Positions 42,985 through 60,315 of a stretch of 64,000 nucleotides of DNA are shown here, one piece after another. The DNA is from Bacteroidota bacterium (GTDB taxonomy: Bacteria; Bacteroidota; Bacteroidia; Chitinophagales; Chitinophagaceae): positions 248,001 through 312,000 of the forward strand of contig JAIUNW010000001.1 of assembly GCA_020161535.1 (NCBI GenBank), written 5' to 3'. The notes under the pieces were generated by a model. That model saw only the letters and a program-made list of their open reading frames with translations, did not search any database and was not told the origin of the DNA. A program made the translations under genes and the position numbers. The stretch's first letter is position 1. Every line of letters begins with the position of its first letter.

Positions 42985-43023
42985 GTTTAAGGTTTAAGGG
43001 CTAAGGTTTAAGGTTGCTGCCGC
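42985..43023 (+). repeat. 39-base inverted repeat, left arm of cassette 1
   Basis: Begins GTTTAAGGTTTAAGG and ends GGTTGCTGCCGC. It starts six bases after the FKBP stop codon. It matches the right arm (43443-43481, inverted) at about 35 of 39 positions and both arms of cassette 2. Confidence 0.85.
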
Positions 43024-43183
43024 GTGGCGGGCATTTAAAAATGGTATATCGTTTATTAAGTGTATTGCATATCAAATGTGGTTTTATATCAAACACGTGT
43101 AGCATGTTAAACTGGTATAATATGTTAAATACATCCAGCATGTCGGGTACTTGTTGAATGGTGTAGCATAAAACGCATCGCAT

Positions 43184-43389
43184 ACGAAACATACCTGTTG
43201 CACACGAAACACGGCATAGCACACGAAACACATCATAGCACACGAAACATACCTGTAGCACACGAAACAAGGTATAGCACACGAAACACACCTGTAGCAC
43301 ATTTAACAGGCCTGTAGCACACTTAACAGGTCTAACGCACACTTAACAGGCCTAACGCGCACTAAACCGGTTTATAGCCTACGAAATAG
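43184..43389 (+). repeat. Tandem array of ten to eleven 19/20-base units
   Basis: Units begin 43184, 43204, 43223, 43242, 43262, 43281, 43301, 43321, 43341, 43361 and 43381 (the last truncated). The first six begin ACGAAACA; three of the next four begin ACTTAACAGG, ATTTAACAGG or similar. Most end TAGCAC or AACGCAC. Lengths alternate 20/19. The array has no unique spacers, so it is not a CRISPR. Directly after it comes a terminator-like hairpin, so the array would be the 3' untranslated part of the FKBP message. Confidence 0.85.
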
Positions 43390-43390
43390 T

Positions 43391-43430
43391 AAAGGCGACT
43401 TGCAATGAATGCAAGTCGCCTTTGTATTTT
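43391..43430 (+). terminator. Terminator hairpin after array 1
   Basis: AAAGGCGACTTGCA (43391-43404) pairs perfectly with TGCAAGTCGCCTTT (43410-43423), loop ATGAA, followed by TTTGTATTTT. It would end FKBP transcription after the array. Confidence 0.75.
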
Positions 43431-43442
43431 GCTGTTCAAGTT

Positions 43443-43481
43443 GCGGCAGCAACCTTAAACCTTAGACCTTAAATCTTAAAC
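43443..43481 (-). repeat. 39-base inverted repeat, right arm of cassette 1
   Basis: Reverse complement of the left-arm type (on the minus strand starts GTTTAAGATTTAAGG, ends TTGCTGCCGC). It ends two bases before the stop of the PKD-domain gene. Confidence 0.85.
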
Positions 43482-43483
43482 AA

Positions 43484-43834
43484 CTATTTCATGGTTAGGC
43501 TCACTTCGTCTACACTGGAACTGCCTTTTTCGTCGGTAACAACCAGGCGAAAAACATATTCACCGGGGGTAATGCCCTCCACGGCTGAGATGGCAGCGTG
43601 CGGGTTCACAATGGTAGCGGGTTTTCCGGAGACCTGGCTCCAATGATACCTGGAAATGAGGCCGTCGGGCTCCACACTGGCGGTGCCGTCTAACTGCACA
43701 AAATCTTTGGTGGTGATGGCCATATCGTTGCCGGCATGGGCAACAGGCGGAAGATTTTTTTCGGCTTTTTTCACCGGATCAGGCTGGAAAGCCAATACAG
43801 ATACAAGTGAAAGACCGACAATGAGCGCTTTCAT
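43484..43834 (-). CDS. Secreted PKD-domain protein
   Basis: 116 residues: signal peptide (MKALIVGLSLVSVLAFQ, weak) and a single Ig-like PKD/REJ domain (PPVAHAGNDMAITTKDFVQL, DGLISRYHWSQVSG, GEYVFRLVVTDEKGSSSVDEVSL). PKD domains mediate binding in surface proteins, usually as repeats in large proteins; a stand-alone single domain this short is unusual. It may be a small adhesin or a subunit. It sits between the two tandem arrays: cassette 1 beyond its stop and the terminator of array 2 beyond its start. Confidence 0.8.
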   Translation of the reverse strand: MKALIVGLSLVSVLAFQPDPVKKAEKNLPPVAHAGNDMAITTKDFVQLDGTASVEPDGLISRYHWSQVSGKPATIVNPHAAISAVEGITPGEYVFRLVVTDEKGSSSVDEVSLTMK

Positions 43835-43895
43835 ATAGGGGGGATTTAGTTCTCTTTAAACGCCAAGCCCGGGCCAAATATTATTAGCGAGCTGT

Positions 43896-43935
43896 TAAAA
43901 AAGCAGAACCGACTGATTTTCAGTCGGTTCTGCTT
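43896..43935 (-). terminator. Strong terminator hairpin of the phosphorylase-like operon, after array 2
   Basis: AAGCAGAACCGACTGA (43901-43916) pairs perfectly (16 bp, loop TTT) with 43920-43935. On the minus strand it is followed by a T run (A run 43897-43902). It ends minus-strand transcription coming through array 2. Confidence 0.8.
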
Positions 43936-43952
43936 ATGTTTAGAAATTTTCT

Positions 43953-44238
43953 CTGTCTTCTACACTTTTGCCCCTGATCGATTCTACTTAGAGAGGTGGT
44001 CGGTTCCTCTTATGGAGTTCATCGATTCCTCTTTTAGACCTCATCGATTCCTCATCGAGACCTGGTCGACTACACTTATGCCACTGATCGATTGCTCTTA
44101 TATAGCTGATCTATTCCTCTTCGGGAGGTGGTCGATTCCTTTTATTGAGGTGGTCGATTCCTTTTATTGAGGTGGTCGATTCCTTTTATTGAGGTGGTCA
44201 ATTCCTCCTAGAGAGGTGGTCGATTCCGCTTATGGCTA
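43953..44238 (-). repeat. Tandem array of thirteen exact 22-base units
   Basis: Units start every 22 bases from 43953 to 44217. The conserved half reads TGGTCGATTCC (or TGATCGATTCC, TCATCGATTCC) and the other half varies around TCTTATNGAGG. Units 44129, 44151 and 44173 are identical. The period is not a multiple of three, so the array is not coding, and there are no spacers, so it is not CRISPR. Read on the minus strand it lies between the stop of the phosphorylase-like gene (44354) and the terminator at 43896-43935. The rest of this gap (43835-43895, 44239-44353) shows nothing recognisable. Confidence 0.9.
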
Positions 44239-44353
44239 GTAAGTCGATCAACGTTTAACTGAAGTCTGTTCAATAAAATGCCATTCTACCGCATTCGACT
44301 GTAATTCTACCGTATTCGACTTTATTGCCAAGTATTCAACTGTCAGTCCCACT

Positions 44354-46009
44354 TCAGGCATTGTACATCAGCGCATAATACTCATGCGCCATGCGATTGC
44401 TTTCAAACTGGTAACGTACATCGCGCATGCCGTTTTTAACGATCTGGCGCCAGGTAGCACGGTCGTCGTAATACAAGGGCAGGATCTGCTCCTGCAGGAT
44501 TTTATACAACTGTTCGAGGTCATATTCATCCTGGTCGTGGGTATTCATGTTCAGGTAATCCACCTTGGGTACCACAAAACCATTGTTGCCATTGTTGATA
44601 AATTCGGGTATCCAGCCATCGTCGGTACTGAAGTTCACCGCGCCATTCATGGCGGCTGTCATACCACTGGTGCCACTGGCTTCTCTTGGTACGCGCGGGT
44701 TGTTCAACCAACAATCAGCACCTTGTTTAAGTCGCTTCGACAACGCAAGTTCATAACCAACCAATACCGCCATATTGGAATAAGATCTACTCAGGTGTAC
44801 CAGGTTATTGAAATCATTGATCGCGGGATAATCCATCGGATAGGGTTTACCGGCCCAAATGATTTGTACGGGATACTTTGTATTCGTCATCAGCTCGCGA
44901 AACCTAGCCTGGTCGCGGGTAATCAATTCAGCCCTTTTATAACCAGCGAAACGACGCGCCCAAACAATGGTGAACACATCCGGCTTAAAGATTTTTCCCG
45001 TTTGATCGGCTACAATATCAAAGGCCCTTTTCTTCAGGTACAATTTGCGATCGTCAAAAGCATGGTCATTGCCTTCTTCCATGGATCGATAAAGTTGTTT
45101 ATCGGCCCAGTACCGCCAGTTTTGCGCGTTGGTGATCGACTTGATATCACAAATGCCCGGGTACTTACTCCACATTGCGCGCGACACTACCCCATGCAAC
45201 TGCGAAACACCATTGGCAATGCGCGCAAAACGCAGTGCTACCAGTGAATGGTTGAACTGATCGTCTTGTATGCCAGTCAAAGCACGTACTTCGTCGATCG
45301 AGAGTCCGCAGAAATAACTCATCTTCTGACAGAGGTAGATATCATGCTTCTCATTGCCTGCTTCCTCGGGCGTATGGGTGGTAAACACCAATCTCTTTTT
45401 CACTTCATCCAGGTTCTTGTTGAATTTCTGGTAGAGGTAAAAACCGGCACTGATACCATGGGCTTCGTTCAGGTGATACACTTCCGGATTGTAGTTCATT
45501 TCATCGAGCAACTTTGCGCCGCCTACACCCAGCAAAATAAACTGGGCCACTTTAGTCGCCACGTTGGCATCGTAGAGTCGATGCGTGATGGTTTGCGATA
45601 CATAATCGTTTTCCGGAAGATCGGTGCTCAACAAGAACAGCGGTGCCGATTTAAACGTTTCGGGATTGAGGTAAAAAACCTTGACCCAAACAGGGTGATC
45701 ATGAATCGAAATCTGAAACTTAATGCCGGTGTCTTCGAGGAAACTGTAAATCTTTTCCATCCAGGTTACCTGCAGGGTTTGGTCCTGGTTGCGCGCCTGG
45801 TCGTAATAACCGTATTTCCAAAGAATGCCGATGCCGATCAGGTTTTGCCTGAGTTCATAGGCACTGCGAAGATGTGAGCCCGATAAAAAACCCAATCCGC
45901 CACTGTAAATTTTTAGGGGTTGGTGAACGGCAAATTCCATCGAGAAATAAGCCACTTTTTTAGCGTATTCGTCAGAATGGTAGGGTACTTTAAAATTCAT
46001 AAAACTCAT
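44354..46009 (-). CDS. Alpha-glucan phosphorylase-like glycosyltransferase (GT35), PLP lysine replaced
   Basis: 551 residues, shorter than glycogen phosphorylase (about 800). GT35 features: KVAYFSMEFAVHQPLKIYSGGLGFL, NEAHGISAGFYLY, FTTHTPEEAGNEKHDI, FAGYKRAELITRD, IIWAGKPYPMD and REASGTSGMTAAMNGAVNFSTDDGW. In phosphorylases the last motif carries the PLP-binding lysine (GMK or NMK); here threonine occupies it. Either the enzyme works without PLP or it is not a phosphorylase. Cytoplasmic, presumably in glycogen/maltodextrin metabolism. It follows the lipoprotein gene by seven bases; its 3' untranslated region is array 2. Confidence 0.85.
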   Translation of the reverse strand: MSFMNFKVPYHSDEYAKKVAYFSMEFAVHQPLKIYSGGLGFLSGSHLRSAYELRQNLIGIGILWKYGYYDQARNQDQTLQVTWMEKIYSFLEDTGIKFQISIHDHPVWVKVFYLNPETFKSAPLFLLSTDLPENDYVSQTITHRLYDANVATKVAQFILLGVGGAKLLDEMNYNPEVYHLNEAHGISAGFYLYQKFNKNLDEVKKRLVFTTHTPEEAGNEKHDIYLCQKMSYFCGLSIDEVRALTGIQDDQFNHSLVALRFARIANGVSQLHGVVSRAMWSKYPGICDIKSITNAQNWRYWADKQLYRSMEEGNDHAFDDRKLYLKKRAFDIVADQTGKIFKPDVFTIVWARRFAGYKRAELITRDQARFRELMTNTKYPVQIIWAGKPYPMDYPAINDFNNLVHLSRSYSNMAVLVGYELALSKRLKQGADCWLNNPRVPREASGTSGMTAAMNGAVNFSTDDGWIPEFINNGNNGFVVPKVDYLNMNTHDQDEYDLEQLYKILQEQILPLYYDDRATWRQIVKNGMRDVRYQFESNRMAHEYYALMYNA

Positions 46010-46016
46010 AACACAA

Positions 46017-46994
46017 CTATTTCTTTTTCTTTGTACCGGTTACAGCCGGTTTCTTTTTACGTATATAACTTCCTTCAAAAAAACATTTTATGTCGCGGTA
46101 AGAACCGCAGCCTTCCAGTTCTTTCAACTTTACGGTATTGCCGCTAAAATTGAAATCAATGGCACAGGTACCATTGTTCTCGGTGAACCGGCCGGTATTG
46201 GCACCGGTAATCGCCATCTCCCCTTTCAATTCTCCCCTGCACGCACCGCCGTCTTTTTCAAAATGAATGAAGAAGTACAACCGGCCAGGTTTAGAACCAT
46301 CACGAACAGATACCAGGTTTTTTTTATCCTGGAAATAATCGCCCGTAAGCTTATGCGATGCCTTCAGTGTATCTACCGGGTTTTGTAATTCGGTGGTTGG
46401 GCCAGTTGTGCCTGCGTTCGATTCCGTAAGGATTAACGTAAACAATCCTTCAGTATTATACACATACACTTTCTTGTTATAAGTAAGCTGCCCCGACGCC
46501 GAGGCTTGCTGGCGATTGATGGTAATGGTGTATTTATTGTCCATCACCGCCGAAGAAAGATCATTTGCCTTTGGTGCCGTACTAAGATTGAGCAATGGAA
46601 GGGCGGTGACAAAACTGTCTTTGTCAAAAACCAGCAGCGAAGCGGCTTTTTTGGCATTGCTGAAAGAGCGAACAAAGAGATAAGTTTCACCGTCTTTAAC
46701 CGAAACTTTTCCGATGGGGTAAATCTGGGGCTTGCTGCCCTTCACCGTCAACTGGGTGATGACTGAATCGGGAATAAACTGGGCGATGATTTTATTGCCA
46801 ATGCGGATGGAATCATTTGGCTTTTTTACCAAAGAAGAATCGGCCAGTTGCACCGGCAGGGAAATGGTTGGGAAAAAATCAACAAACTCTTGTACGGTTA
46901 CGGTGCTGTCATCCGTTAATTGCTTTTTTTTCTGTGAACAACTGGCCAGTATACATAAAAAAAATACCCATAGAACCCGCGTGCGTCGAAGCAT
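46017..46994 (-). CDS. Lipoprotein of unknown function
   Basis: 325 residues: lipoprotein signal (MLRRTRVLWVFFLCILASCSQ, lipobox LASC), then a mostly beta-strand domain (about 40-180; SLPVQLADSSLVKKPNDS, VSVKDGETYLFVRSF) and a second beta domain (about 205-310; KLTGDYFQDKKNLVSVRDG, RLYFFIHFEKDGGACRGELKG, CAIDFNF, GSYRDIKCFFEGSY) with four conserved-looking cysteines that may pair. The C-terminus is very basic (IRKKKPAVTGTKKKK). I do not recognise the family. It is upstream of the glucan-phosphorylase-like gene in one unit. Confidence 0.65.
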   Translation of the reverse strand: MLRRTRVLWVFFLCILASCSQKKKQLTDDSTVTVQEFVDFFPTISLPVQLADSSLVKKPNDSIRIGNKIIAQFIPDSVITQLTVKGSKPQIYPIGKVSVKDGETYLFVRSFSNAKKAASLLVFDKDSFVTALPLLNLSTAPKANDLSSAVMDNKYTITINRQQASASGQLTYNKKVYVYNTEGLFTLILTESNAGTTGPTTELQNPVDTLKASHKLTGDYFQDKKNLVSVRDGSKPGRLYFFIHFEKDGGACRGELKGEMAITGANTGRFTENNGTCAIDFNFSGNTVKLKELEGCGSYRDIKCFFEGSYIRKKKPAVTGTKKKK

Positions 46995-47064
46995 AGCTGA
47001 TTTTTCCGTGAATCGCTAAAATAGGGTGTTTTGGTTAAGTGCGTGGGTTTTACAATTATTTTTT

Positions 47065-47092
47065 TTTAGATTTGTCTAAATTTAAATTTAGA
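47065..47092. promoter_or_regulatory. Overlapping MntR/DtxR-type operators over the mntR promoter
   Basis: TTTAGA (47065-47070), TTTG, TCTAAA (47075-47080) is a perfect palindrome, and TCTAAA (47075-47080), TTTAAA, TTTAGA (47087-47092) is another perfect palindrome sharing the middle half-site. The -7 box TAGATTTG (47067-47074) lies inside the first palindrome. The repressor gene starts five bases downstream. A dimer bound here would block RNA polymerase, so autoregulation by manganese or iron is predicted. Confidence 0.7.
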
Positions 47093-47096
47093 TCAA

Positions 47097-47768
47097 TTGA
47101 AATATTCATCCAGTAAGGAGAATTATCTGAAAGCGATCTTTCACCTGCAACAAGACGATTCGGTTGTGAATACCAACGCCCTTGCCCGGCAGTTGAATAC
47201 CAAACCGGCTTCTGTTACCGATATGCTCAAAAAGCTGAAAGCGCAGAAGCTATTGCAATACCAACCGTATAAGGGTGTCAAACTAACGGCCGACGGCAAA
47301 AAAGTGGCGCTGCAAATCATCCGCAAGCACCGGCTATGGGAATATTTTCTGGTCGATAAACTGGGCTTTGGTTGGGAAGAAGTGCATGAGATCGCCGAAG
47401 AACTGGAGCATATCAGCAGCCGCAAACTGATCGACCGCCTGGAACTATTTCTGGGAAGTCCGCGTACCGACCCCCACGGCGATCCCATTCCCGACAGCCA
47501 GGGTAAAATGCCGGTCATACAGCAAACGGCTTTGCTGGACCTGCCGCTGAAGAAAACAGCCGCCGTGATCAGTGTTAGCAACCAGTCGACCGCCATGCTC
47601 GACCTGCTCAAACATTATCATATCGGCATCGGCACCAAGTTGCAGGTGAACCGCCGATTTGAATTTGACCAAACCCTGGAAATCGCCATCGCCAATCGGC
47701 CGGTGTTCACCATCAGTGAACTGCTGGCGTCAAATCTTTTTGTAGCCTATGACACAACAACCGCATAA
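47097..47768 (+). CDS. mntR: DtxR/MntR-family metal-dependent repressor with FeoA-like C-terminal domain
   Basis: Senses Mn2+ or Fe2+ and represses metal uptake. 223 residues: winged helix-turn-helix (20-65; NTNALARQLNTKPASVTDML), dimerisation/metal-binding domain (70-140; RKHRLWEYFLVDKLGFGWEEV, HEIAEELEHISS; His78, Glu82, His97 and Glu101 are likely ligands) and a FeoA/SH3-like domain (about 155-223; HYHIGIGTKLQVNRRF). The start is TTG at 47097; no ATG is close. The symbol follows from the neighbour: it overlaps the Nramp gene by 20 bases, so the two are coupled, with an operator-promoter directly upstream. Confidence 0.87.
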   Translation: MKYSSSKENYLKAIFHLQQDDSVVNTNALARQLNTKPASVTDMLKKLKAQKLLQYQPYKGVKLTADGKKVALQIIRKHRLWEYFLVDKLGFGWEEVHEIAEELEHISSRKLIDRLELFLGSPRTDPHGDPIPDSQGKMPVIQQTALLDLPLKKTAAVISVSNQSTAMLDLLKHYHIGIGTKLQVNRRFEFDQTLEIAIANRPVFTISELLASNLFVAYDTTTA

Positions 47769-49632
47769 CGATCTTTCGCTGAGCGATGTGCACAATACGG
47801 TTGATACCACCCGGCATACCAGCTTTTGGAAAAGGATTTTTTCTTTTCTAGGTCCAGCGTACCTGGTGAGCGTTGGCTATATGGATCCGGGCAACTGGGC
47901 CACCGACTTACAAGGTGGCAGTCAGTTCGGTTATGCATTGCTGTGGGTATTGCTGATGAGTAATATTATGGCCCTCCTGCTGCAAAGTTTGTCGGCCAGG
48001 TTGGGCATAGTTCGCGGCCGCGACCTGGCGCAGGCCAACCGCGAAACATTTCCACCAGCGGTTAATTTTATTTTATACCTGTTGGCCGAAGTGGCCATTG
48101 CCGCTACCGATCTCGCCGAAGTATTGGGAATGGCCATCGGCATTCACCTACTCACCGGTTTGCCGTTGATGGCCGGCGTAGCCATTACCATACTCGACAC
48201 ATTTCTCTTATTATGGTTACAGAAACTGGGCATGCGAAAGATGGAGTTGTTTATCATTGGACTCATCTCCATCATCTCTATTTCGTTTCTGATCGAAATG
48301 ATTTTGGTGAAACCGGTGATGAGCGAAGTGGTCAGCGGTTTGGTGCCTTCTATTCCCAATGAAACAGCTTTGTATATCGCCATTGGAATTATAGGTGCCA
48401 CCGTGATGCCGCACAACCTTTACCTGCATTCGGCGCTGGTACAAACGCGAAAGATCCGCAACGACTATGCAGGCAAGAAAAAGGCAATCCGCATGAATGT
48501 GATCGACAGTGCCATTGCCCTAAACCTGGCTTTTTTTGTGAACGCTGCCATCTTGGTGCTGGCTGCCGCTGCCTTTCACAAAACCGGTCAAACCGATGTA
48601 GCGCGCATTGAAGATGCACATCGCCTGCTCGACAACCTGCTCGGTTCCAAACTAGCTCCTACCCTTTTTGCCATTGCGTTGATAGCCGCCGGGCAATCGT
48701 CGACCATCACTGGCACCCTCGCCGGACAAATTGTAATGGAGGGGTACTTGCAACTGCGGATCAATCCCTGGTTGCGTCGCCTCCTCACGCGTTTGCTGGC
48801 CGTGGTGCCCGCTTTGTTGGTCATCTATTATTTTGGTGATGGCGAAGTAGATGCCATGTTGGTGTTGAGTCAGGTGATATTGAGTCTTCAGTTGGGCTTT
48901 GCGGTAATTCCATTGATACATTTTGTGAGCGACAAAGAAAAAATGGGCGACCTGCGCATCAAACCGTATGTAGCCATAGCGGCCTGGCTGGTAGCGGCTG
49001 TTTTGGTTTACCTTAACCTGCGCATGGTACTCACCGAAGCCTTTCAATTTTTGCAGGGCAATAATGCCTGGTGGATCAAAGCCCTGATTGTAGTGGGCAT
49101 TTTGCTGTTATTGGTTTTGTTGCTGGTGGTGATTGTTCAACCTTTACTGGCCAAAAAGCAACGACAAAAACAAGTAGCCATTCACAGCAGCCTTCGCAAC
49201 TTACAGGCGCAACACCTGCCGGCCTACCAGCGGGTAGCCATCGCCCTCGAGTTCAGTCAACACGATAGCCAATTGCTTTCGCATGCAATGGCGCAGGCAA
49301 GTCCCGGTGCAACCCTTATCCTCATTCATATTGTGGAAAGCGTAACGGCGAAATTTTACGGCACCGCCAGCGAAGACCTCGAATCGCAACAAGATGCCAA
49401 TCAACTGGCGCAATATGTCGCTGAGCTACAGTCGCGCGGTTACCAGGCGATTGCCTGCCTGGGACACCAATCAAGACATACCGGTATTGTTGAACTTACC
49501 CGTCGGGAAAAAGCCGATCTGTTGATCATGGGGGCACATCGACACCGTGCCGTGGCCGACTTGATTTATGGCGATACCATCAACAAAGTGAGACACGACC
49601 TGGCCATTCCTGTGTTGGTGGTCAATGTGTGA
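47749..49632 (+). CDS. mntH: Nramp Mn2+/Fe2+ transporter fused to a universal stress protein domain
   Basis: 627 residues. The N-terminal Nramp domain has 11 or more helices (about 30-465), the metal-site motifs DPGNW (46-50) in helix 1 and VMPHN (219-223) in helix 6; the methionine favours Mn2+/Fe2+ over Mg2+. After a short membrane-exit linker of basic residues, a UspA-like domain begins near 480: RVAIALEFSQHDSQLLSHAM, then ADLLIMGAHRHRAVADLIYGDTINKVRHDL with the ATP-binding G-2x-G-9x-G(S/T)-like loop in altered form. The Usp domain may gate transport by nucleotide. Preceded by mntR, with a 20-base overlap. Confidence 0.9.
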   Translation: MTQQPHNDLSLSDVHNTVDTTRHTSFWKRIFSFLGPAYLVSVGYMDPGNWATDLQGGSQFGYALLWVLLMSNIMALLLQSLSARLGIVRGRDLAQANRETFPPAVNFILYLLAEVAIAATDLAEVLGMAIGIHLLTGLPLMAGVAITILDTFLLLWLQKLGMRKMELFIIGLISIISISFLIEMILVKPVMSEVVSGLVPSIPNETALYIAIGIIGATVMPHNLYLHSALVQTRKIRNDYAGKKKAIRMNVIDSAIALNLAFFVNAAILVLAAAAFHKTGQTDVARIEDAHRLLDNLLGSKLAPTLFAIALIAAGQSSTITGTLAGQIVMEGYLQLRINPWLRRLLTRLLAVVPALLVIYYFGDGEVDAMLVLSQVILSLQLGFAVIPLIHFVSDKEKMGDLRIKPYVAIAAWLVAAVLVYLNLRMVLTEAFQFLQGNNAWWIKALIVVGILLLLVLLLVVIVQPLLAKKQRQKQVAIHSSLRNLQAQHLPAYQRVAIALEFSQHDSQLLSHAMAQASPGATLILIHIVESVTAKFYGTASEDLESQQDANQLAQYVAELQSRGYQAIACLGHQSRHTGIVELTRREKADLLIMGAHRHRAVADLIYGDTINKVRHDLAIPVLVVNV

Positions 49633-49634
49633 GT

Positions 49635-50261
49635 TCAGGGCTGTTTAACCAAATGCTTCAGCCTGCTGAACGTTTCGGGTTTAATTTGCAGGTAAGACGC
49701 GAGGTATTTTTGCGGCACCCGCAACAACATATCAGGGTGCTTCTGGATGTATTGCAAAAACCGATCGCGCGCTGGTCGCTGCATTTGAATCAAATCGCGC
49801 ATCACTTTGCGCGCATACAATTCACCTGCCATCAATCGTCCCAATCGGTTTGTTATCGGCACTTCAACCAGCAGGGCATCCATTTTTTGTCGGGTAATCG
49901 ACAAACAAGTAGTTGATTCAAGTGTTTCCAGCCAGCACAGGGCGGGCTTTCGCTCAAAAAAAGAAATTTCTGCGTGGATAAAATGACCTTCTTTGCTCAG
50001 TTGAAGCGTTACTTCCTGTTTGCCGGCCAGCATGTACTTGCGCACAACGCCTTTCAAAATCAGGTTAAAATAATTTTCCTGATCGCCGGGTTGAAGAATG
50101 ATTTCTTTTTTGTCGAACTGTCGAATTTCACAGTAGTTGATGATTTGCGAAAATTCTTCGGTCGACATACCCGTATGGGCATTCACATATCGATGCAACC
50201 GGGCAATTTGTACGGAGAAATTTTCCAAACCCGGGTAAATCTTTTTTGCCGAATCATTCAT
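49635..50261 (-). CDS. Crp/Fnr-family transcription regulator (paralogue 1)
   Basis: 208 residues. N-terminal cyclic-nucleotide-binding fold (about 30-135; EFSQIINYCEIRQFDKKEII, QPGDQENYFNLILKGVVRKY, AEISFFERKPALCWLETLE) and C-terminal region (about 155-205, RPARDRFLQYIQKHPDMLL, RVPQKYLASYLQIKPETFSRL). The C-terminal helix-turn-helix QKYLASYLQIKPETFSRL is typical of the Bacteroidota subgroup in which the DNA-binding part is short. No Fnr-type N-terminal cysteine cluster. The ligand is unknown. It overlaps its paralogue gene by eight bases. Confidence 0.85.
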   Translation of the reverse strand: MNDSAKKIYPGLENFSVQIARLHRYVNAHTGMSTEEFSQIINYCEIRQFDKKEIILQPGDQENYFNLILKGVVRKYMLAGKQEVTLQLSKEGHFIHAEISFFERKPALCWLETLESTTCLSITRQKMDALLVEVPITNRLGRLMAGELYARKVMRDLIQMQRPARDRFLQYIQKHPDMLLRVPQKYLASYLQIKPETFSRLKHLVKQP

Positions 50262-50904: not shown

Positions 50905-50910
50905 TTGGCT

Positions 50911-50918
50911 TAGGTTTG
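50911..50918 (+). promoter_or_regulatory. -7 promoter box of icd (TAGGTTTG)
   Basis: Perfect TAnnTTTG, 27 bases before the icd ATG. ATTG at 50887-50890, 20 bases upstream of the box, could be a weak -33 element. Confidence 0.5.
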
Positions 50919-50945
50919 CGGACTTGCATTTAAAATCAACCCACT

Positions 50946-52178: not shown

Positions 52179-52204
52179 TTAGTGATAAGCAACCAAACAA
52201 AAAG

Positions 52205-52236
52205 GGCTGTCTCCGGGAGACAGCCTCTTTTTTTTA
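52205..52236 (+). terminator. Rho-independent terminator of icd
   Basis: GGCTGTCTC (52205-52213) pairs perfectly with GAGACAGCC (52217-52225), loop CGG, followed by TCTTTTTTTT. Confidence 0.9.
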
Positions 52237-52258
52237 CTTACTACTATGCGGGAAAAAC

Positions 52259-52612: not shown

Positions 52613-52631
52613 GTGATTTGTTTTTGATAGA

Positions 52632-55600
52632 TTATTTAACACTCACGAGTACATTGATTTTGCCAATACCTGCGCCGTTGAAGTCGGCCAAGGCCTTGCC
52701 AATCACCTGACCCACTTTTACCTTGTCAGGGTCGGCCTTCATAGCAGCACCCGGAGTAGATGAACTAACCAGTAAATCACCTCGTTTAATGGCACCACCT
52801 TCCATGGTAACTTTGGTGGGGATAACACCAATTACACCCATCGGCACGCCAGCGTCGCCGAGTTTTTCATTGATGTTTTTCTCCGTCAGCAATACACCCG
52901 GTTTGGTGGCATATACGCCCGCAACGAGGGTAGAATAAGGCTTGGATGATTTAACCACTGTACGGTCGTTGCTGGCAGAGATTTCCAGCACATCGCCGGG
53001 CTCGTAAGTTGTCAGGCTACCTTCCACCGAAAAATGCTCAGCCACATCAGCACCTGAGTACTGGGCGCCGCCATTAAAATAACCGCGTCCGTTTGCATCG
53101 ATTCTTGCCACATTGGTGCCGCCAACCTGGAATTCAGCGAGGTTACCAGTACCAGCCACGCCCAATGCTGCTAAAAGTGCTGTTCCATTACCTGAACCGG
53201 TAACTTCATTGGCATAGGCCATCACACCAATACCGTCGCTGCTCGTTCCCATTACGCCTATTGCGTTTGTACGACCGGCTGGACTACCTGTTGCAGCATT
53301 GTATCCGTAGATTGCCGGACTTCCATCGCCGGCTGTTTCACCAACGATGGCTGTTCCCAAACCGGAATTGTTGGCATACAAACCGGCACCATATGGAACT
53401 GTGGAGGTGGCTTCAATACCGTTGATGGCACCGATGGCAATAATAGCCGTGGTTTGGTCGGCTTCGGCTTGAATAGCAGGTAAAGCTGATCCACCATCCG
53501 CATGTGTTACAACATGTAAACCCGTGCCAGCATCAGAAGTCGCTTCAATGGCCACCTGGTTTTGCGAATACGCAGACAGACCAATATTATTGATGGACGA
53601 AGCTTTCACCCCGATACCATTGTTGGTGAAACCCGCCACCGCTGTTCCCATGCCAGAGTGTGTGCCAATAACACCAAAAGCATTGGTAGAAGAAGTTCCT
53701 GTAACGGCACCCCATACGCCAGAAGAATTGGCATTGGGCGATGCGTGTTCAATATTACCATTAACACCCGATACCAAGGCAGCGTTTGCATTGGATCCTA
53801 CAATTGGAATGCCGGGACCGTAGTTATAGAGGGAAAACAGGTTGCTGTTATCGGTGTATTTAGTAGACGCCGGAGTCGGAAAGGGAATCGAAAAAGAAGT
53901 TCCTGATCCCGTTGCATCTGCCTGCGGTGCCCACTGGGTACCATTGAATTTCAATACCTGACCAGTGGTGGGTGCTACCGATGAAATCGGTGTACCGGCA
54001 ATCTTGCCCAGGGTTGGGTTGGGATAAGTACCGGCGAGATCACCTGAAGCGGCGCCATTGGGCGGCAAGCTGGTTGGAATCACGCCTGTTGCCAGTTTAG
54101 CGCTGGTGATGGTACCATCGGTAATCTTCGCTGCAGTTACGGCACCGTCGGCCAGTTTCGCCGTGCTTACAACAGCATCAGCCATTTTAGCAGCCGTTAT
54201 TGCATTGGCCGCAATGGTCGGATTCGGATAGCTACCTGCCAGGTCGCCACCCGCTGCACCGGTTGGCGCGCCGCTACCACCCGTTGCTTCTGCCGCAGGC
54301 GCCCATTGTGTTCCATTGTATTTCAGAATCTGGCCAGTTGTCGGCAAGGTCGCTGCGACAGCTACGCCATTTATTTTCGCCACGGCGGGTGAAGGATAGC
54401 TACCACTGAGGTCGCCCGAGGCGGTACCATTCGGCGGCAAGCTGGTGGGGATTACACCCGATGCGATTTTCGCACTCGTAACAGCACCATCGGCCAGTTT
54501 TGCTGTGCCAATGGAGGCATCAGCGATTTTGGCACTGGTGATGGCGTTGTTGGCCACCGTTGGGTTGGGGTAAGAGCCAGTCAGGTCGCCACCAGCTGCA
54601 CCCGTTGGTGAGCCACTACCGCCCGAGGCCTCATTCGCCGGCGCCCATTGTGTGCCGTTAAATTTCAGTATTTGTCCGCTGACAGGCGCTGTTGCCGCCA
54701 GGGTATAACCATTCAGTTTACCCACCGTTGGCGCGGGATAGTTGCCACTCAAATCGCCCGAGGCAGCGCCGGAAGGCGGCAGGCTGCTGGGGATCACCCC
54801 ACTGGCCAGTTTGGCTGAGGTGATGGTGCCATCGGGTATTTTTACGGCAGTAACCGACCCATCGGCCAGTTTTGCCGTCGTAACTGCATTTGCTGCTAAA
54901 TCTGCGCTGGCAACGGTACCATCGGCGATTTTGGCCGTGGTTACTGCATTGTCGGCGATTTTAGCAGTGGAAACGGCGTTATCGGCCAGTTTCGGGTTGG
55001 TGATGGCTGCGTCGAGTACCTTGGTCGTGCTGATCGCATTGTCCGCAATTTTGCCATTGGTAACGGCATTATTGGCCACCGTTGGATTGGGATAAGTGCC
55101 TGCAAGATCGCCGCCGGCAGCACCGGTGGGCGAACCGCTACCACCCGAAGGAATTACGCCCGGCGCCAGTTTGGCGGCGGTGATGGTACCATCGGCGATT
55201 TTTGCCGCGGTAACAGCATTATCGGCCAGTTTCGGGTTGGTGATCGATGCGTCTTGTACCTTGGCTGTACTGATCGCGTTATCGGCAATTTTGCCATTGG
55301 TAACGGCTGCATTGGCGATAGACGGGTTGGGATAAGTACCAGTGAGGTCGCCCGCAGCAGCGCCGGTAGGTGGCAGCGAAGTCGGTATAACACCCGAAGC
55401 CAGCTTGGCGGCAGTAACCGAACCATCGGCTATTTTATTAGTGGTAATGGCTGCATTAGCCAGTTTTCCAGATGTTACAGCACCAGCAGCGATGGAGGGT
55501 GCTGGATAGGTTCCTGTCAGGTCGCCACTGGCAGCGCCGCTGGCGCTTGATCCAGAAAGCACGCCCGGCGCCAGTTTGGCGGCGGTGATGGAACCATCGG

Positions 55601-56129
55601 GAATTTTATCGGCCGTCACCGCGCCCGTTCCCAGTTTGGTGCTGGTAACCGCGCCGTCTTTGATGGCCGGGTTGGGGAAGTTTCCGCTCAGGTCGCCGCC
55701 GGCTGCGCCAATGGGATTGGCAGACTCAGCGCGGAAAGCGAAGGGAACACTGGTCAGTGGGCTGGAACCCAGCGACACAAAATTGGTTCCCCCTTTGGGA
55801 TCCATTTCAATTTCAACATATTTCAAGGTGGTGGCCGACCAGTTGACGCCCGACAGGGTACCTGTCAGGTTACTGCCCCCTTCGCTACCGATCGCGGTAG
55901 AAAAGAGACCGAACTGGTTGGTGGTCACCGTTCTTCTTTCTGAATACACAATAATGCCGGTGGGTGATGCTTCGTGAATAGAAACCCGGATGGAAACTGA
56001 TTGGTTGGATAAGGGCGCTCCGTATGCATTTCTGGCGATCCCCTGGTAATTGATCTGTTTTGGCACCTGTGCGTATACAGAGGAACACAAAAACAGTCCT
56101 ACCACAAATGGCATAACTTGTTTTATCAT
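52632..56129 (-). CDS. Very long repetitive secreted fibre-like protein
   Basis: 1165 residues: signal peptide (MIKQVMPFVVGLFLCSSVYAQ); a Bacteroidota N-terminal domain (residues 24-135; QINYQGIARNAYGAPLSNQS, SSPLTSVPFAFRAE); a repeat region (about 140-745) in which GDLxGxYPNPT blocks alternate with rows of ITxAKIADG/VTxAKLADG hexads; a second region of NAxGVxGxSxxGxGVxA units (about 760-985); and a C-terminal domain (about 1000-1165; EPGDVLEISASNDRTVVKSS). The repeats resemble phage tail-fibre or trimeric adhesin stalks with beta-helical structure. It has no T9SS tail itself; the preceding gene does. Confidence 0.82.
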   Translation of the reverse strand: MIKQVMPFVVGLFLCSSVYAQVPKQINYQGIARNAYGAPLSNQSVSIRVSIHEASPTGIIVYSERRTVTTNQFGLFSTAIGSEGGSNLTGTLSGVNWSATTLKYVEIEMDPKGGTNFVSLGSSPLTSVPFAFRAESANPIGAAGGDLSGNFPNPAIKDGAVTSTKLGTGAVTADKIPDGSITAAKLAPGVLSGSSASGAASGDLTGTYPAPSIAAGAVTSGKLANAAITTNKIADGSVTAAKLASGVIPTSLPPTGAAAGDLTGTYPNPSIANAAVTNGKIADNAISTAKVQDASITNPKLADNAVTAAKIADGTITAAKLAPGVIPSGGSGSPTGAAGGDLAGTYPNPTVANNAVTNGKIADNAISTTKVLDAAITNPKLADNAVSTAKIADNAVTTAKIADGTVASADLAANAVTTAKLADGSVTAVKIPDGTITSAKLASGVIPSSLPPSGAASGDLSGNYPAPTVGKLNGYTLAATAPVSGQILKFNGTQWAPANEASGGSGSPTGAAGGDLTGSYPNPTVANNAITSAKIADASIGTAKLADGAVTSAKIASGVIPTSLPPNGTASGDLSGSYPSPAVAKINGVAVAATLPTTGQILKYNGTQWAPAAEATGGSGAPTGAAGGDLAGSYPNPTIAANAITAAKMADAVVSTAKLADGAVTAAKITDGTITSAKLATGVIPTSLPPNGAASGDLAGTYPNPTLGKIAGTPISSVAPTTGQVLKFNGTQWAPQADATGSGTSFSIPFPTPASTKYTDNSNLFSLYNYGPGIPIVGSNANAALVSGVNGNIEHASPNANSSGVWGAVTGTSSTNAFGVIGTHSGMGTAVAGFTNNGIGVKASSINNIGLSAYSQNQVAIEATSDAGTGLHVVTHADGGSALPAIQAEADQTTAIIAIGAINGIEATSTVPYGAGLYANNSGLGTAIVGETAGDGSPAIYGYNAATGSPAGRTNAIGVMGTSSDGIGVMAYANEVTGSGNGTALLAALGVAGTGNLAEFQVGGTNVARIDANGRGYFNGGAQYSGADVAEHFSVEGSLTTYEPGDVLEISASNDRTVVKSSKPYSTLVAGVYATKPGVLLTEKNINEKLGDAGVPMGVIGVIPTKVTMEGGAIKRGDLLVSSSTPGAAMKADPDKVKVGQVIGKALADFNGAGIGKINVLVSVK

Positions 56130-56152
56130 TGGAATGGATTTAGAGGTATTTG

Positions 56153-56698
56153 TTAGTTAATCTTGATTATTTTGTAAGCGCCTTTTCTGACAATGCCACC
56201 CTGAAGCGGTTCCAGTTCAACATATAAGAAATAGTATCCGGCGGCCAGCTTCGTCATGTTAAATGTCTCGGTGGTACCGTACCCATAATAGGCATATGAT
56301 TTCTGGGTGAGTCGCTCGCCCTTGGCAGTAAACAACATACAATGCAGGTTACCCGGCTGGTTTACCGACACCTGCACCTGTAAAATGGAGCGAACTGGGT
56401 TGGGTAAGATTTTCACTTCGCCCGGCGCAAAACTGGGCTCGTCTGAAATGGTCATCAACCCATTGTTATCGGGTTGAAGCAAGCCCTGGGTCAGCAAGAA
56501 TGACTTATTATCGGCGATACGCGTGTCGATTCGCACCAGTTCACCGATGCTCCAGTCAGTCATCAATTGGTCGTTCTTAAAACTACCGCCGGCGCTGTTG
56601 TTGGTCACCGTAGTACCTTCCTGCGCCAGGCTACTGGCCGCCAAAAAGAGCGAAAAAACGCCGGTTAGTAATAGTTGTTTTGGACGGTTTAAGTTCAT
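56153..56698 (-). CDS. T9SS C-terminal sorting-domain protein
   Basis: 181 residues: signal peptide (MNLNRPKQLLLTGVFSLFLAASSLAQ), a small N-terminal beta part (DWSIGELVRIDTRI, FLLTQGLLQPD) and a C-terminal type A sorting domain (VKILPNPVRSILQVQV, YFLYVELEPL, KGAYKIIKIN) recognised by the type IX secretion system and usually removed during surface attachment. Most of the protein is the sorting domain. It could be a carrier or surface anchor for the fibre protein 24 bases downstream in the same unit. Confidence 0.8.
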   Translation of the reverse strand: MNLNRPKQLLLTGVFSLFLAASSLAQEGTTVTNNSAGGSFKNDQLMTDWSIGELVRIDTRIADNKSFLLTQGLLQPDNNGLMTISDEPSFAPGEVKILPNPVRSILQVQVSVNQPGNLHCMLFTAKGERLTQKSYAYYGYGTTETFNMTKLAAGYYFLYVELEPLQGGIVRKGAYKIIKIN

Positions 56699-57198
56699 AC
56701 GTTGGATTATACGAATCCGGATAAATAATACTCCGGACAGCTTTAACGTAGATTTCGGCGTAAAATTTTGGCAATCACTGAAAATCTCGCGGTTCGATCC
56801 CGTGCTCGGTTAAAATGCTTGTAGGCCGCCAAGCGTTTGCTCCATTGGGCAAAGGGGCGAAAATGAACAAACTATATAGGAGAATGGGACGGTGTAAAGA
56901 AAATTGACCTGGGCAGTCAATGCAGGTTTGGTCTTACATTCTTTATCATTTTAGTGCTGCGGCCAAGGCGGCCTTGACTGGAATTATAAGTCTTGCTCTA
57001 CTGCCAGCGTTAAGCAAATTATTCGAATAATTATATACCAATAAATATTATATTTCATTGATAAATAAATAATTGCATAAAAAAGCCGAAAAATCATTAC
57101 TGATCTTTCGGCAGAAGAAAATTTGACTTTGGCAGGCTTAGAAAAGGGCCATCCTGTGAACAAGACAGCCACTAACGATTGCTTGCCATATGAAAATC
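56699..57198. other. 500-base intergenic gap with tRNA-like fragment and a terminator
   Basis: AT-rich gap between two minus-strand genes. At 56788-56804 the sequence CGCGGTTCGATCCCGTG has the form of a tRNA T-arm (5-bp stem, TTCGATC loop), followed by an acceptor-like CTCGGTTA, but no matching 5' half exists, so no intact tRNA is here. The terminator at 57079-57112 is described separately. A 62-codon minus-strand frame at 56984-57172 has no support. Otherwise nothing recognisable. Confidence 0.5.
57079..57112 (-). terminator. Terminator of the small Ala-rich lipoprotein gene
   Basis: Minus-strand hairpin: 57101-57112 (TGATCTTTCGGC on the plus strand) pairs with GCCGAAAAATCA (57085-57096), 12 bp including one wobble, loop of four, followed by a run of Ts (plus-strand As 57079-57084). 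It lies 87 bases beyond the stop. Confidence 0.7.
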
Positions 57199-57408
57199 TT
57201 ACTTTTTCAGGGAGTCAACCTTTGCTTTCAGGCTATCAACAGCTGCAGAAGCAGTAGAATCGATAGTAGCTTTAGCGCTATCAACAGTTGCGGTAACAGC
57301 AGAGTCTACTTTAGAAGCAGCAGCTTCAGTAGCTTCAGTTGCAGTGTCAGCAGCATTGTTACAAGCAGCGAAGGCGCCGATAGCCATAACGAAAAGGAGC
57401 TTTTTCAT
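57199..57408 (-). CDS. Small Ala-rich helical lipoprotein
   Basis: 69 residues: lipoprotein signal MKKLLFVMAIGAFAACNN (lipobox FAAC), then about 50 residues of Ala/Ser/Thr/Asp/Lys with recurring VDS or IDS every 7-8 residues (KVDSAVTATVDSAKATIDS, then AAVDSLKAKVDSLKK), predicting a single long amphipathic helix that could form a coiled coil. It ends in two lysines. The design recalls Braun's lipoprotein (Lpp), but no homology is claimed. Short ORF, strong signal and its own terminator support it as a real gene. It is divergent from the ECF sigma gene. Confidence 0.75.
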   Translation of the reverse strand: MKKLLFVMAIGAFAACNNAADTATEATEAAASKVDSAVTATVDSAKATIDSTASAAVDSLKAKVDSLKK

Positions 57409-57548
57409 GAGAGTTCTTTTAGTATTAGTTTGAATAATGATTTCTTATTAATACGGAGATCGGAAAAAGGTAACCCGGCGCAGAAAAAAAAATTTTCGCC
57501 CATCTTTGCGGGTTACTATTTGTTATTTTATGTATTAAATAATACAGC

Positions 57549-58112
57549 GTGAGTGTAGATCCGGCAGAACGGGATTTATTGACAGGATTGGGAAAAAAAG
57601 ACACAACGGCCACCGAAACCATCTACCGCCGGCACTATTCCATGGTGCAGTCGATGGTATTGGCAGGCAATGGGAGTATTGACGATGCCCGTGATGTTTT
57701 CCAGGAAACAATGCTGGTATTGTACGACAAAGTTCGAAATCCGGGGTTTGAGCTCACCTGTCTGTTGAAGACATATATCTATTCGGTGGCCCGAAGGCTT
57801 TGGTTGAAGCGGCGACAACTTTCACAAAAAACCGTTCCGGCGCTGGAGGACATCGAAGAAACAGTTTCTGTAGAAGAAGATGTAGATGCAACGGAAAATG
57901 CAGAGTCGGCGTTTTTAATCATGGACAAAGCGATGGCCGGTCTCGGTGAACCTTGCCGAAGTTTGTTGACGGCCTTCTACCTTGAGAAACGCAGTATGTC
58001 GGAGATAGCGGGCAATTTTGGTTACACCAACGCAGAAAACGCCAAGAACCAGAAGTACAAATGCCTGACCAGATTGAAAAAATTATTTTTTGCCCGGTAT
58101 AAAAGCCAGTAA
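57549..58112 (+). CDS. ECF-type RNA polymerase sigma factor (module 3)
   Basis: 187 residues, start GTG at 57549. Region 2: IDDARDVFQETMLVLYDKV, LLKTYIYSVARRLWLKRRQL. Then an acidic linker (ALEDIEETVSVEEDVDATEN) and region 4 with CRSLLTAFYLEKRSMSEIAG and FGYTNAENAKNQKYKCLTRLK. It is followed after two bases by the anti-sigma/protease gene, with which it must form a regulatory pair. An upstream CATCTTTG at 57510-57517 is a near match to the -7 box. Confidence 0.88.
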   Translation: MSVDPAERDLLTGLGKKDTTATETIYRRHYSMVQSMVLAGNGSIDDARDVFQETMLVLYDKVRNPGFELTCLLKTYIYSVARRLWLKRRQLSQKTVPALEDIEETVSVEEDVDATENAESAFLIMDKAMAGLGEPCRSLLTAFYLEKRSMSEIAGNFGYTNAENAKNQKYKCLTRLKKLFFARYKSQ

Positions 58113-58114
58113 AG

Positions 58115-59227
58115 ATGAACGAGGACGTACAAATATTGGAAATGGTGGAGCGGTACTTGTTGGGTGAGATGTCGCCCGAAGAGCGTGCCCAGTTTGAGGC
58201 TATCCGTGCTCTTCGCCCGGAAGTGGACCAACTGGTGGTGGAACATGGTCTTTTTCTACGCCAGGTAGATGAATATGGCGATCGCAAATCAATCAAATCA
58301 TTTCTGCACGATACCCAGCATAACCTGGAGCTTTCCGGCGACATCAGTACCGAACAGCCCAAGGTGCGCTTTATGACCGATCGCTACAAGCGGGTTTTCT
58401 TTGTAGCAGCCTCCATCGCTGGCTTAACCGCCCTGGCCATCAGCGGCATCGTCAGCTATTTTACGCCCAAGGGCAGCACTTCTGAAATCGCCCTTTTGAA
58501 GCGGGAATTGAACCTGGTGAAAAAAACCACCCTGCAAACCCAACACCAGGTGAATAACCTGAGTGTGGTGCCTGCGCCCGCAGACAACCGGCCCGTTCGC
58601 CCCTCAGATCCCGGGAAATTTGGCGGCACCGGCTTTTTGATCGACGGTCGTGGTTACCTCGTTACCTCGGCGCATGTGGTTGCCAAGGCCGATTCAGTAT
58701 ATATTAGTAATGCCAAGGGCGAATTCTATAAAACAAAACTGCTGCACCTCAACAACGAAACGGATATTGCCATCCTGAAAATTGTTGACGATCGCTTCAC
58801 CGCGTTGAGCAGCCTGCCGTATAGCCTGCGTACGAAAAAGGCCGAACTCGGCGAACCCATTTTCACCCTGGGTTTCCCCCGTACCGAAATCGTGTACAAC
58901 GAAGGCTACCTGAGTGCGAAAACCGGTTTCAATGGCGATACCACGGCTTACCAGGTGTCGATCGCAGCCAACCCCGGCAACTCCGGCGGCCCCATCTTCA
59001 ACCACAATGGCGAAATCATCGGTGTACTGAGCGGCAAGCAAACCACCGCCGAAGGTGCTGTCTTTACCAGCCTCAGCAAGAACATCTTGCGCGCCATCGA
59101 CTCCCTGAAAACCGACAGCAGCAACCTCAGCATCCACCTCCCGCTGCACAGCAGCCTCCGCGGTGTTGAACGGGTGCAACAAATCAAACAGATTGAAAGC
59201 TGTGTTTTCAATGTAATGTCATTCTAA
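58115..59227 (+). CDS. Membrane-anchored trypsin-like protease with anti-sigma-like cytoplasmic head
   Basis: 370 residues. Residues 1-90: cytoplasmic acidic helical segment (MVERYLLGEMSPEERAQFEA) resembling anti-sigma N-termini in this phylum. Residues 93-115: one membrane helix. Residues 120-160: coiled, Pro-rich linker. Residues 165-340: S1C (DegP/HtrA-like) trypsin fold with intact triad His187 (VTSAHVVA), Asp217 (NNETDIAILK), Ser290 (ANPGNSGGPIF). No PDZ domain. The protease would face the periplasm. Two bases separate it from the sigma gene. Likely job: hold the sigma factor inside and respond to, or make, a cleavage event outside. The 3' end abuts cassette 2. Confidence 0.87.
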   Translation: MNEDVQILEMVERYLLGEMSPEERAQFEAIRALRPEVDQLVVEHGLFLRQVDEYGDRKSIKSFLHDTQHNLELSGDISTEQPKVRFMTDRYKRVFFVAASIAGLTALAISGIVSYFTPKGSTSEIALLKRELNLVKKTTLQTQHQVNNLSVVPAPADNRPVRPSDPGKFGGTGFLIDGRGYLVTSAHVVAKADSVYISNAKGEFYKTKLLHLNNETDIAILKIVDDRFTALSSLPYSLRTKKAELGEPIFTLGFPRTEIVYNEGYLSAKTGFNGDTTAYQVSIAANPGNSGGPIFNHNGEIIGVLSGKQTTAEGAVFTSLSKNILRAIDSLKTDSSNLSIHLPLHSSLRGVERVQQIKQIESCVFNVMSF

Positions 59228-59242
59228 TAAGGCAAGACTGCT

Positions 59243-59280
59243 GTTTAAAGTTTAATGTCTAAGGTTTAAGGTTGCTCCGC
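59243..59280 (+). repeat. 38-base inverted repeat, left arm of cassette 2
   Basis: Begins GTTTAAAGTTTAATG, ends GGTTGCTCCGC (one G fewer than the other three copies). It starts 15 bases after the protease stop. Confidence 0.82.
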
Positions 59281-59596
59281 GTGCGGGGAGGCTTTTTTAT
59301 CAATGGCTGCCCGTTTATTTCGCACGTTGTTTTCTGATTGATCTCAACCTTTTATTATTTAATTCTCTTCAACATATTTGCTATTTGAAACTTACCTTAT
59401 GGGTTTCTGTAAGGATACAAGCTTTGGCAATGACGAATTTTAATTTACCGCCTTATATTGGTACACGACAAAGGGGAAAATAACAGCCAACCCGATGTGT
59501 TATAAACTAGTGCTAGGTTGAAAGTTTAAGCCAATGACGCATATAAGAGTTTACAGCCGGAATTCTAAAATGTGAATTACGCAAAAATGCATTTAA

Positions 59597-60073
59597 ATGA
59601 GCTTCGCTGAATTTTTATCAAAGAATTGGTCCCAAATTACAGTCGTACTGACTGCATTAGGAGCTGTGATAAAGATTATTTTTGATTTCCAAATCCGAAA
59701 AAAGGAAATAAAATTTGAATATTTATTCAAAGAGAAAGCAAGTTCATTTCAAGATTTCATGATTTGTCTTCAAAACTTCAAAACCCAACTTATTAAAGAA
59801 GCATATATACATAAGTATGGTAGTTCTACTTTTTCCGAATTCGAAACGACCATGGACAAATCCAGAAAAGAACTTGAAAGCAAAATAAATTTACTTCTAA
59901 TTTACTGCTCACATAAGGAAAAAGAATCGCTTTACGCAATTCTTAATAGTTGCACATTTGTTCTCCATGCGATTAAAAACGTAAATGTAAATGATGTAGA
60001 AAAAGTTCTGCAAGATAATTGCAAAAAAAATGATGCTATTATTAACAAGTTAATTAAGAACTTCCATCTTTAG
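59597..60073 (+). CDS. Hypothetical membrane protein, AT-rich (probably acquired)
   Basis: 158 residues: a membrane helix near the N-terminus (residues 13-33, ITVVLTALGAVIKIIFDF) and then a fully helical, Lys/Asn-rich cytoplasmic part (KKEIKFEYLFKEKASSFQDF, ESLYAILNSCTFVLHAIKNV). The topology is like small membrane-helical effector or immunity proteins, but no family is recognisable. Codon use (AAA, AAT, ATT, TTA rich) differs sharply from the neighbours. It lies inside the inverted-repeat cassette 59243-60315 and has no operon partner. Confidence 0.7.
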   Translation: MSFAEFLSKNWSQITVVLTALGAVIKIIFDFQIRKKEIKFEYLFKEKASSFQDFMICLQNFKTQLIKEAYIHKYGSSTFSEFETTMDKSRKELESKINLLLIYCSHKEKESLYAILNSCTFVLHAIKNVNVNDVEKVLQDNCKKNDAIINKLIKNFHL

Positions 60074-60276
60074 TGAGCAACTAAATTGCTTCCTTTTATG
60101 ATTTTCTTGTATTTGCATCTCTTTAAGGCTTAGGTTACTAAAACAAAGCCCGATTGAAAATGCTTTTGTATGCTGTATAAAATCAACCGGATTCAAAACA
60201 AACGAGGCTGGCGCAAAACCATAAGGATACCCCCCTGCACCCATTGGAATTTGCCATAACTGACGCTGCTACACCT

Positions 60277-60315
60277 GCGGCAGCAACTTTAAACCTTAAA
60301 CTTTAAACTTTAGAC
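60277..60315 (-). repeat. 39-base inverted repeat, right arm of cassette 2
   Basis: On the minus strand starts GTCTAAAGTTTAAAG and ends GTTGCTGCCGC. It ends ten bases before the stop of the nucleotidyltransferase gene. Confidence 0.85.

Follow-up and report, generated by a model that had tools for sequence, protein, structure and literature searches.

The window analysed here is a 64,000-nucleotide stretch (positions 248,001 to 312,000 of contig JAIUNW010000001.1, assembly GCA_020161535.1; part of contig C12 in our numbering) of the 4.03-Mb, 23-contig genome (G000) of a Bacteroidota bacterium of the family Chitinophagaceae. Two of its intergenic gaps each hold an interval enclosed by inverted copies of one short arm, and we refer to these intervals as cassette 1 (C12b) and cassette 2 (C12c). 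Both arm pairs are present where a reading of the letters alone (the sequence-only reading) had placed them. The left arm of cassette 1 (42985-43023, forward strand) is made of four GTTTAAG-type heptamers followed by GTTGCTGCCGC, and its right arm (43443-43481, reverse strand) is the inverted counterpart; an ungapped inverted-repeat comparison gave arms of 39 nt that are 95% complementary, with 419 bp between them. The same tool assigned cassette 2 arms of 34 nt (59243-59276 and 60282-60315; 88% complementary, 1005 bp apart), and the wider limits proposed earlier (59243-59280 on the forward strand and the inverted 60277-60315 on the reverse strand) fit the sequence as well. The arm ends were as described earlier with one exception, the left arm of cassette 2, whose end reads TTGCTCCGCG, one base short of TTGCTGCCGC; the tip of this arm, GCTCCGCGTGCGGGGAGGC, is followed by TTTTTT and is terminator-like. 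The short pattern GGTTTAAGGTTGC was not significantly enriched within the window by itself (4 matches vs 2.3 expected).

The loop of cassette 1 (i.e., the DNA between its arms; 43024-43442, 419 bp) contains a degenerate minisatellite with units of ~20 bp (43176-43367), which covers 46% of the loop at the threshold used. A hairpin, AAAGGCGACTTGCA...TGCAAGTCGCCTTT (43391-43423), lies between the minisatellite and the right arm, which it adjoins; it folds as expected and is of a type also found centrally in a short copy of the element. The loop of cassette 2 (59281-60276, ~995 bp) has a GC content of 34% vs 51% in its flanks, contains no tandem repeats above the same threshold and carries an open reading frame (ORF) of 158 aa (59597-60073, forward strand) without a Pfam family.

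Both cassettes lie between convergent genes and within 2-15 nt of the stop codons, as had been noticed from the sequence; the individual distances are 6 and 2 nt for cassette 1 and 15 and 10 nt for cassette 2. Cassette 1 is bounded by a gene at 42226-42978 (forward strand), presumably encoding an FKBP-type isomerase-like protein, and by a convergent gene of 116 aa at 43484-43834 (reverse strand), both syntenic in the relative G013. The genes around cassette 2 are syntenic in 4/4 relatives; we take the first (58115-59227, forward strand) to encode a trypsin-like (HtrA-type) protease and the second (60326-61231, reverse strand) a nucleotidyltransferase-like protein. The next intergenic gap after cassette 1 holds an armless minisatellite (43974-44233; 22-bp unit, 11.6 copies).

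Copies of the arm across the genome

A search for the 16-base core of the arm with at most one mismatch returned 71 copies in the genome (36 forward, 35 reverse) vs none for the reversed control. Cores lying within 1.5 kb of each other formed 23 neighbour pairs, 22 of them facing inward, none outward and one in the same direction, against a random expectation of ~1.8 pairs, all orientations together. The core count and the inward pairing exclude a chance origin of the arms, and the arm is neither confined to the window nor found only singly behind genes. These pairs were counted on the list of 71 cores, from which elements are missing if their arms have diverged further. Relaxing the scan brought the number of inward pairs to 26, with loops of 69-1352 bp; four of them (C8a, C8e, C12c and C16a) come from the relaxed scan. 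Loop contents were essentially unshared apart from local similarities, short ones of the central-hairpin type recurring among loops, which bears out the earlier view that a single repeated arm encloses intervals differing in content. In six of the 26 pairs the loop measures 69-110 bp, which makes the entire inverted repeat ~150-190 nt long. The one same-direction pair is part of a tandem array of 57 bp on C6. At L040:1533-1805, a 649-aa ORF is followed by five 57-bp arm units arranged as direct tandem repeats.

Many arms start a few bases away from a stop codon. When orientation was assigned from ORFs of at least 90 aa (and not by a gene finder), nine pairs lay between convergent genes, 14 between tandem genes and two between divergent genes, with one at a contig edge left unclassified. 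Convergent genes are thus common at these elements yet not required, and the restriction to convergent genes suggested by the window does not hold genome-wide (9/25 classifiable pairs).

From the outside inward, an arm usually consists of four GTTTAAG heptamers (variants TCTAAG, TGTAAG, TTTAAT and TTTAAA), then GTTGCTRCCGC, and then either a GTGCGGGG-like sequence or, in some copies, a lead into a hairpin of the AAAGGCRACTTGCA...TGCAAGTYGCCTTT type. The element thereby has terminal inverted repeats of short tandem units around a variable loop, an architecture like that of fold-back elements and miniature inverted-repeat transposable elements (MITEs). The short copy C13a was predicted to fold as a single long stem tipped by a terminator-like hairpin (-96.3 kcal/mol vs -44.6 for shuffles, z -11.7). 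The two arms of an element are more alike than arms of different elements (mean similarity 30.5 vs 28.3), and 0 of 20000 permutations reached the observed mean. At C21 the arms are identical to each other, unusual third heptamer included.

The same loci in related genomes

Pieces of the flanking proteins matched in all 14 other genomes of the genus, with fewer matches in two incomplete ones. Four relatives (G004, G006, G008 and G014) had both flanking-gene homologues together at all eight loci compared, which gives 32 gaps. The gap that holds cassette 2 is 1106 bp here; it measures 93 bp in G006, 157 bp in G008, 97 bp in G014 and 100 bp in G004, with a hairpin-like stretch. This agrees with the earlier suggestion that the intervals are additions (93-157 bp in 4/4 relatives). 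Heptamer arrays occurred in three of the 32 gaps, at C21 (G004 and G014) and at C3c (G004), and some relatives' gaps hold other coding-like sequence (C19 and C8d).

G013 is the closest relative compared; its assembly is incomplete (75%, 680 contigs). The search in this genome returned 29 matches, from which L160 (a locus already counted) and 11 others (L156, L161, L162, L164 and L166-L172; mostly paralogues or low-identity matches) were set aside. Seventeen loci were aligned, C5a1 and C3d being unusable (contig edge), and C16c and C21 were added, which left 17 usable loci; C12e, which leaves the contig end in G013 and shows no heptamer arm there, was excluded from the count. A heptamer-armed element or its clear remains were present at 12 of the 17 loci, one was ambiguous (C6a) and four had none (C5a2, C9b, C9c and C13a), so the same gaps exist in both element-free and element-bearing states. 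Eight of the 12 positive loci hold short palindromes in G013 (C5b, C5c, C13b, C15a, C15b, C16c, C18d and C20). In the other four, the loop is longer (C16a) or contains a gene (C21), the element is degenerate (C6b), or only the right arm was found (the locus of cassette 1). These short palindromes suggest that the hairpin is the basic unit and that the contents filled the loop later; the sequence-only reading had made a DNA-capturing cassette the basic unit, and the eight loci do not support that part of it. There is also a reverse case, in which a gap of 26 bp here (between genes we take to be those for ribosomal S9 and S2) corresponds to a 118-bp palindrome in G013.

The arms follow species dialects. 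Heptamers in G013 are mostly TTTATGG, TTTGTGG or TTTGAGG, and the TAA type makes up 6/72 there vs 76/110 here, both totals including chance heptamers in loops. The spans used in that heptamer count were set by hand, and lengths were therefore taken from flank alignments; the flank-to-flank stretch is longer here than in G013 at eight of the 12 loci: C5b (531 bp here, 108 bp in G013), C15a (511 and 100), C18d (494 and 54), C16a (857 and 334), C6b (470 and 58), cassette 1 (468 and 176), C5c (243 and 137) and C21 (~1140 and 735). None of the 12 G013 gaps, C21 included, contained a tandem repeat (period at least 9, same threshold). G013 also has a repeat of the CGCAAAG type, seen by eye as a palindrome at the cassette 1 locus (L148:1725-1990) and as a single stretch at the C12e locus (L099:3830-4013).

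Across the genus and the family, matches are patchy. The arm core was found in just one of the 14 other genomes of the genus, namely G013, as a variant with five matches; at up to one mismatch it occurred in 19/294 family genomes (our own included), 15 of the 19 with a single match. With up to one mismatch allowed, a degenerate three-heptamer pattern, whose matches overlap within one array, matched 90 times here, 60 times in G013, 48 times in G004 (reversed control in G004: 14) and 0-3 times in each of the remaining 12 genomes of the genus. Without mismatch it matched 14/107 family genomes (our own included), among which G113 (54) and G084 (42) stand out. Many of the G113 matches come from a single long array at the end of a contig, and in some genomes it is the reversed control that matches (for example, 22 times in G095), so little weight attaches to single matches of the heptamer pattern. 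Of the examples inspected in G084, some loci had short-looped inverted pairs and others single arrays; the other genomes inspected had single arrays. An 18-base pattern for the exact arm gave seven single matches dispersed among lineages, in a collection that may leave out this genome, and we read these as chance. G111, of another genus of the family, has runs of a GTTTAGG heptamer that resemble telomere repeats (G111:C25:68536-68621 and G111:C34:8-93).

Contents of the loops

In the 20 of 26 loops that are at least 300 bp long, tandem repeats (period at least 9) cover 22% of the sequence, vs 6% of other non-coding DNA at the same loci. The repeat units differ between loci. Seven loop ORFs were compared with Pfam; one matched Exo_endo_phos (C4a), one matched PF05635, the 23S rRNA-intervening-sequence protein family (C21), and five had no family. 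No recombinase match appeared among these seven, and neither a transposase nor an integrase was found among them; beyond these ORFs the genome was scanned only for PF01797. The 158-aa ORF of cassette 2 had no Pfam, plasmid or phage match and no relative at E 1e-6 in the 293 other family genomes, six of which contain distant relatives (23-34% identity) of a 202-aa ORF from another loop. The Exo_endo_phos gene, in an element of the C4/C5 type, has a 12-bp minisatellite within it. The last 57 nt of the cassette 2 loop equal a copy on C14 (L058:126-182), after which the two diverge, and this may possibly be a recombination junction between elements.

The C21 element lies beside a gene that presumably encodes CTP synthase, and here its four-helix-bundle (PF05635) gene has minisatellites on both sides. 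A homologue of this gene also stands at the C21 locus of G013 and, in the opposite orientation, of G004. Genes of this type were seen inside arms in three species (L072:2346-2747, L098:1594-1992 and L109:768-1160; the family was tested in our own copy). Genes for 23S rRNA-intervening-sequence proteins are otherwise known from rRNA intervening sequences, and a link between them and inverted-repeat elements may be worth a look.

Origin of the element and its cassettes

We think it probable, with room for real doubt, that both cassettes are elongated versions of an old fold-back intergenic repeat that has been homogenised within each species and whose loop has swollen in this genome. The basic unit would be an inverted repeat, placed tightly in the gap between two genes, with arms usually of four 7-bp units plus a short tip and with a small loop that sometimes contains a terminator-like hairpin. 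Recombination or gene conversion, both between the two arms and among copies, may homogenise the arms. The loop would be the end of the hairpin, where replication slippage and break repair may add DNA, and such additions could yield locus-specific minisatellites and occasionally a longer gene-bearing segment. We accordingly read cassette 1 as a minisatellite-swollen copy and cassette 2 as a copy with an AT-rich segment, whose ORF has no relatives in the searches made. Some copies may in addition terminate transcription of genes running into them.

Several observations weigh against this reading. Minisatellites are not exclusive to loops, since 9% of the intergenic DNA of the window outside the elements is tandem repeat (mostly one armless array), and the loops of C5b, C6b and cassette 2 contain 0%. 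The C16c gap is equally long in both genomes (~270 bp here, 275 bp in G013), C13b, C15b and C20 keep just a lone arm here, and the genes flanking cassette 2 were not recovered in G013, so this cassette has no counterpart there. That loops grew here, and did not shrink in G013, rests on parsimony, and the gene conversion proposed for the arms is putative. Different dialects at the same loci could also arise if elements inserted independently at shared hot spots, and no empty site clean enough to reveal a target-site duplication was found among the loci compared. A role in termination is weak for cassette 1, whose hairpin lacks a good T-tract (best score -6.1), and 5/25 elements have no terminator signal at -8 kcal/mol, a threshold that 11-14/25 shuffled elements pass.

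It is unlikely, in our judgement, that the element is a non-autonomous transposon with terminal inverted repeats (TIRs), mobilised by a transposase acting in trans and able to pick up passenger DNA. Such a transposon would account for the inverted arms around added DNA, the compact element-free gaps of relatives and the polymorphic presence of the element, as at the S9/S2 gap. However, the loops are essentially unshared among copies, the seven loop ORFs tested gave no recombinase match, and eight of the same loci hold short palindromes in G013. No target-site duplication was visible by eye at the S9/S2 site, the cleanest one; the flanks in relatives are too diverged for a clear answer.

The terminator-related character that the sequence-only reading had proposed appears in some elements. 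We scanned for hairpins with a T-tract from each side (220 nt per side in long elements) and found signals of -15 kcal/mol or below in 10/25 elements, including cassette 2 (-17.3, at the left arm), vs 0-2/25 in five shuffles, which permute non-overlapping base pairs and are a rough control. At -8 kcal/mol the scan was less discriminating (20/25 elements vs 11-14/25). Together with the many arms a few bases from a stop codon, this would fit terminators or 3'-end repeats at gene ends that come to face one another only because of gene orientation, with ordinary intergenic DNA as the loop. We nevertheless consider that account improbable: in 14/25 classifiable pairs the flanking genes are in tandem, which leaves one arm facing a start codon, and in 2/25 they are divergent; arms of one pair co-vary; complete palindromes occupy some of the same loci in G013; and the loop DNA is absent from relatives at cassette 2 and most other compared loci.

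A repetitive extragenic palindromic (REP/REPIN) system spread by a REP-associated tyrosine transposase (RAYT) would share the inverted pairs of short repeats, variable loop, intergenic position and species specificity, but the arms here are heptamer arrays and PF01797 had 0 matches in this genome (weak matches in 4/15 genus genomes, matches in 5/14 control genomes), and we rejected the RAYT hypothesis on that absence and hold this origin to be very improbable. An assembly artefact or a mixture of strains in the metagenome bin seems just as remote: C4 and C5 start in or beside copies of one element that are 94% alike over 877 bp, C14 starts and C11 ends within elements, yet copies are spread over many contigs with unique flanks and heptamer-armed elements occupy orthologous loci of another genome. 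The copies at the C4 and C5 contig starts (L035:1-1560 and L036:1-901) may reflect a duplication or a strain mixture in the assembly.

Integron arrays carry attC sites as direct repeats between cassettes; here 22/23 pairs of neighbouring cores face inward. DNA uptake sequences are generally far more numerous and shorter, and we rejected that reading because 71 cores are too few by that general yardstick. Rfam 15 at the gathering threshold gave 0 matches in 10 sources, the window included. The short tandemly repeated repetitive (STRR) heptanucleotides of heterocystous cyanobacteria share the 7-bp intergenic tandem units and differ in being known as direct arrays only.

The portions consulted of the literature on intergenic palindromic, heptamer, MITE and foldback repeats held no description of this element that we could find. 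By working principle its nearest likeness is a foldback element and, among bacterial repeats, REP/REPIN and TIR palindromes; we claim membership in neither. The Drosophila Tetris foldback transposons are non-autonomous inverted repeats with tandem repeats inside, occur in many rearranged forms and are linked to the birth of satellite DNA (PMC4079207). The element here is like them in having inverted repeats that contain tandem repeats; Tetris differs in being eukaryotic, in its units of ~220 bp vs 7 here and in ends shared with a known MITE (PMC4079207), whereas mobility of our element is putative. REPs reportedly measure 20-40 bp and have GTAG or CGTC tags, the GTAG kind being tied to RAYT transposases; REP/REPIN and TIR palindromes are likewise multicopy intergenic palindromic repeats, whereas our element has heptamer arms, long loops and no Y1 transposase by PF01797 (PMC3733652). 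The direct TAACTGA heptamer repeats of Beggiatoaceae, Cyanobacteria and some Bacteroidetes, which in Maribeggiatoa stand mostly just upstream of a start codon, are alike in their 7-bp units, intergenic arrays and patchy distribution but are of another sequence and do not form inverted arms around a loop (PMC4679880). Paired DNA-uptake sequences reportedly act as terminators and resemble the element as inverted pairs of a repeated word that form terminator hairpins (PMC2267715).

To return to the swollen fold-back repeat, a bolder version is conceivable, and we put it forward tentatively: the element, patchy over the family, may be served by a trans-acting system, undescribed so far, that homogenises or mobilises it and rewrites the arms into the dialect of each species while the loci stay fixed, and its loops may give birth to minisatellites and be landing places for genes. 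If such a history is true, dispersed inverted repeats evolving in concert at fixed loci would be observable in one bacterial system, and the same system would show the de novo birth of minisatellites in hairpin loops and the entry of unknown genes into intergenic gaps. It would also explain long, odd intergenic regions that otherwise tempt over-reading as cassettes.

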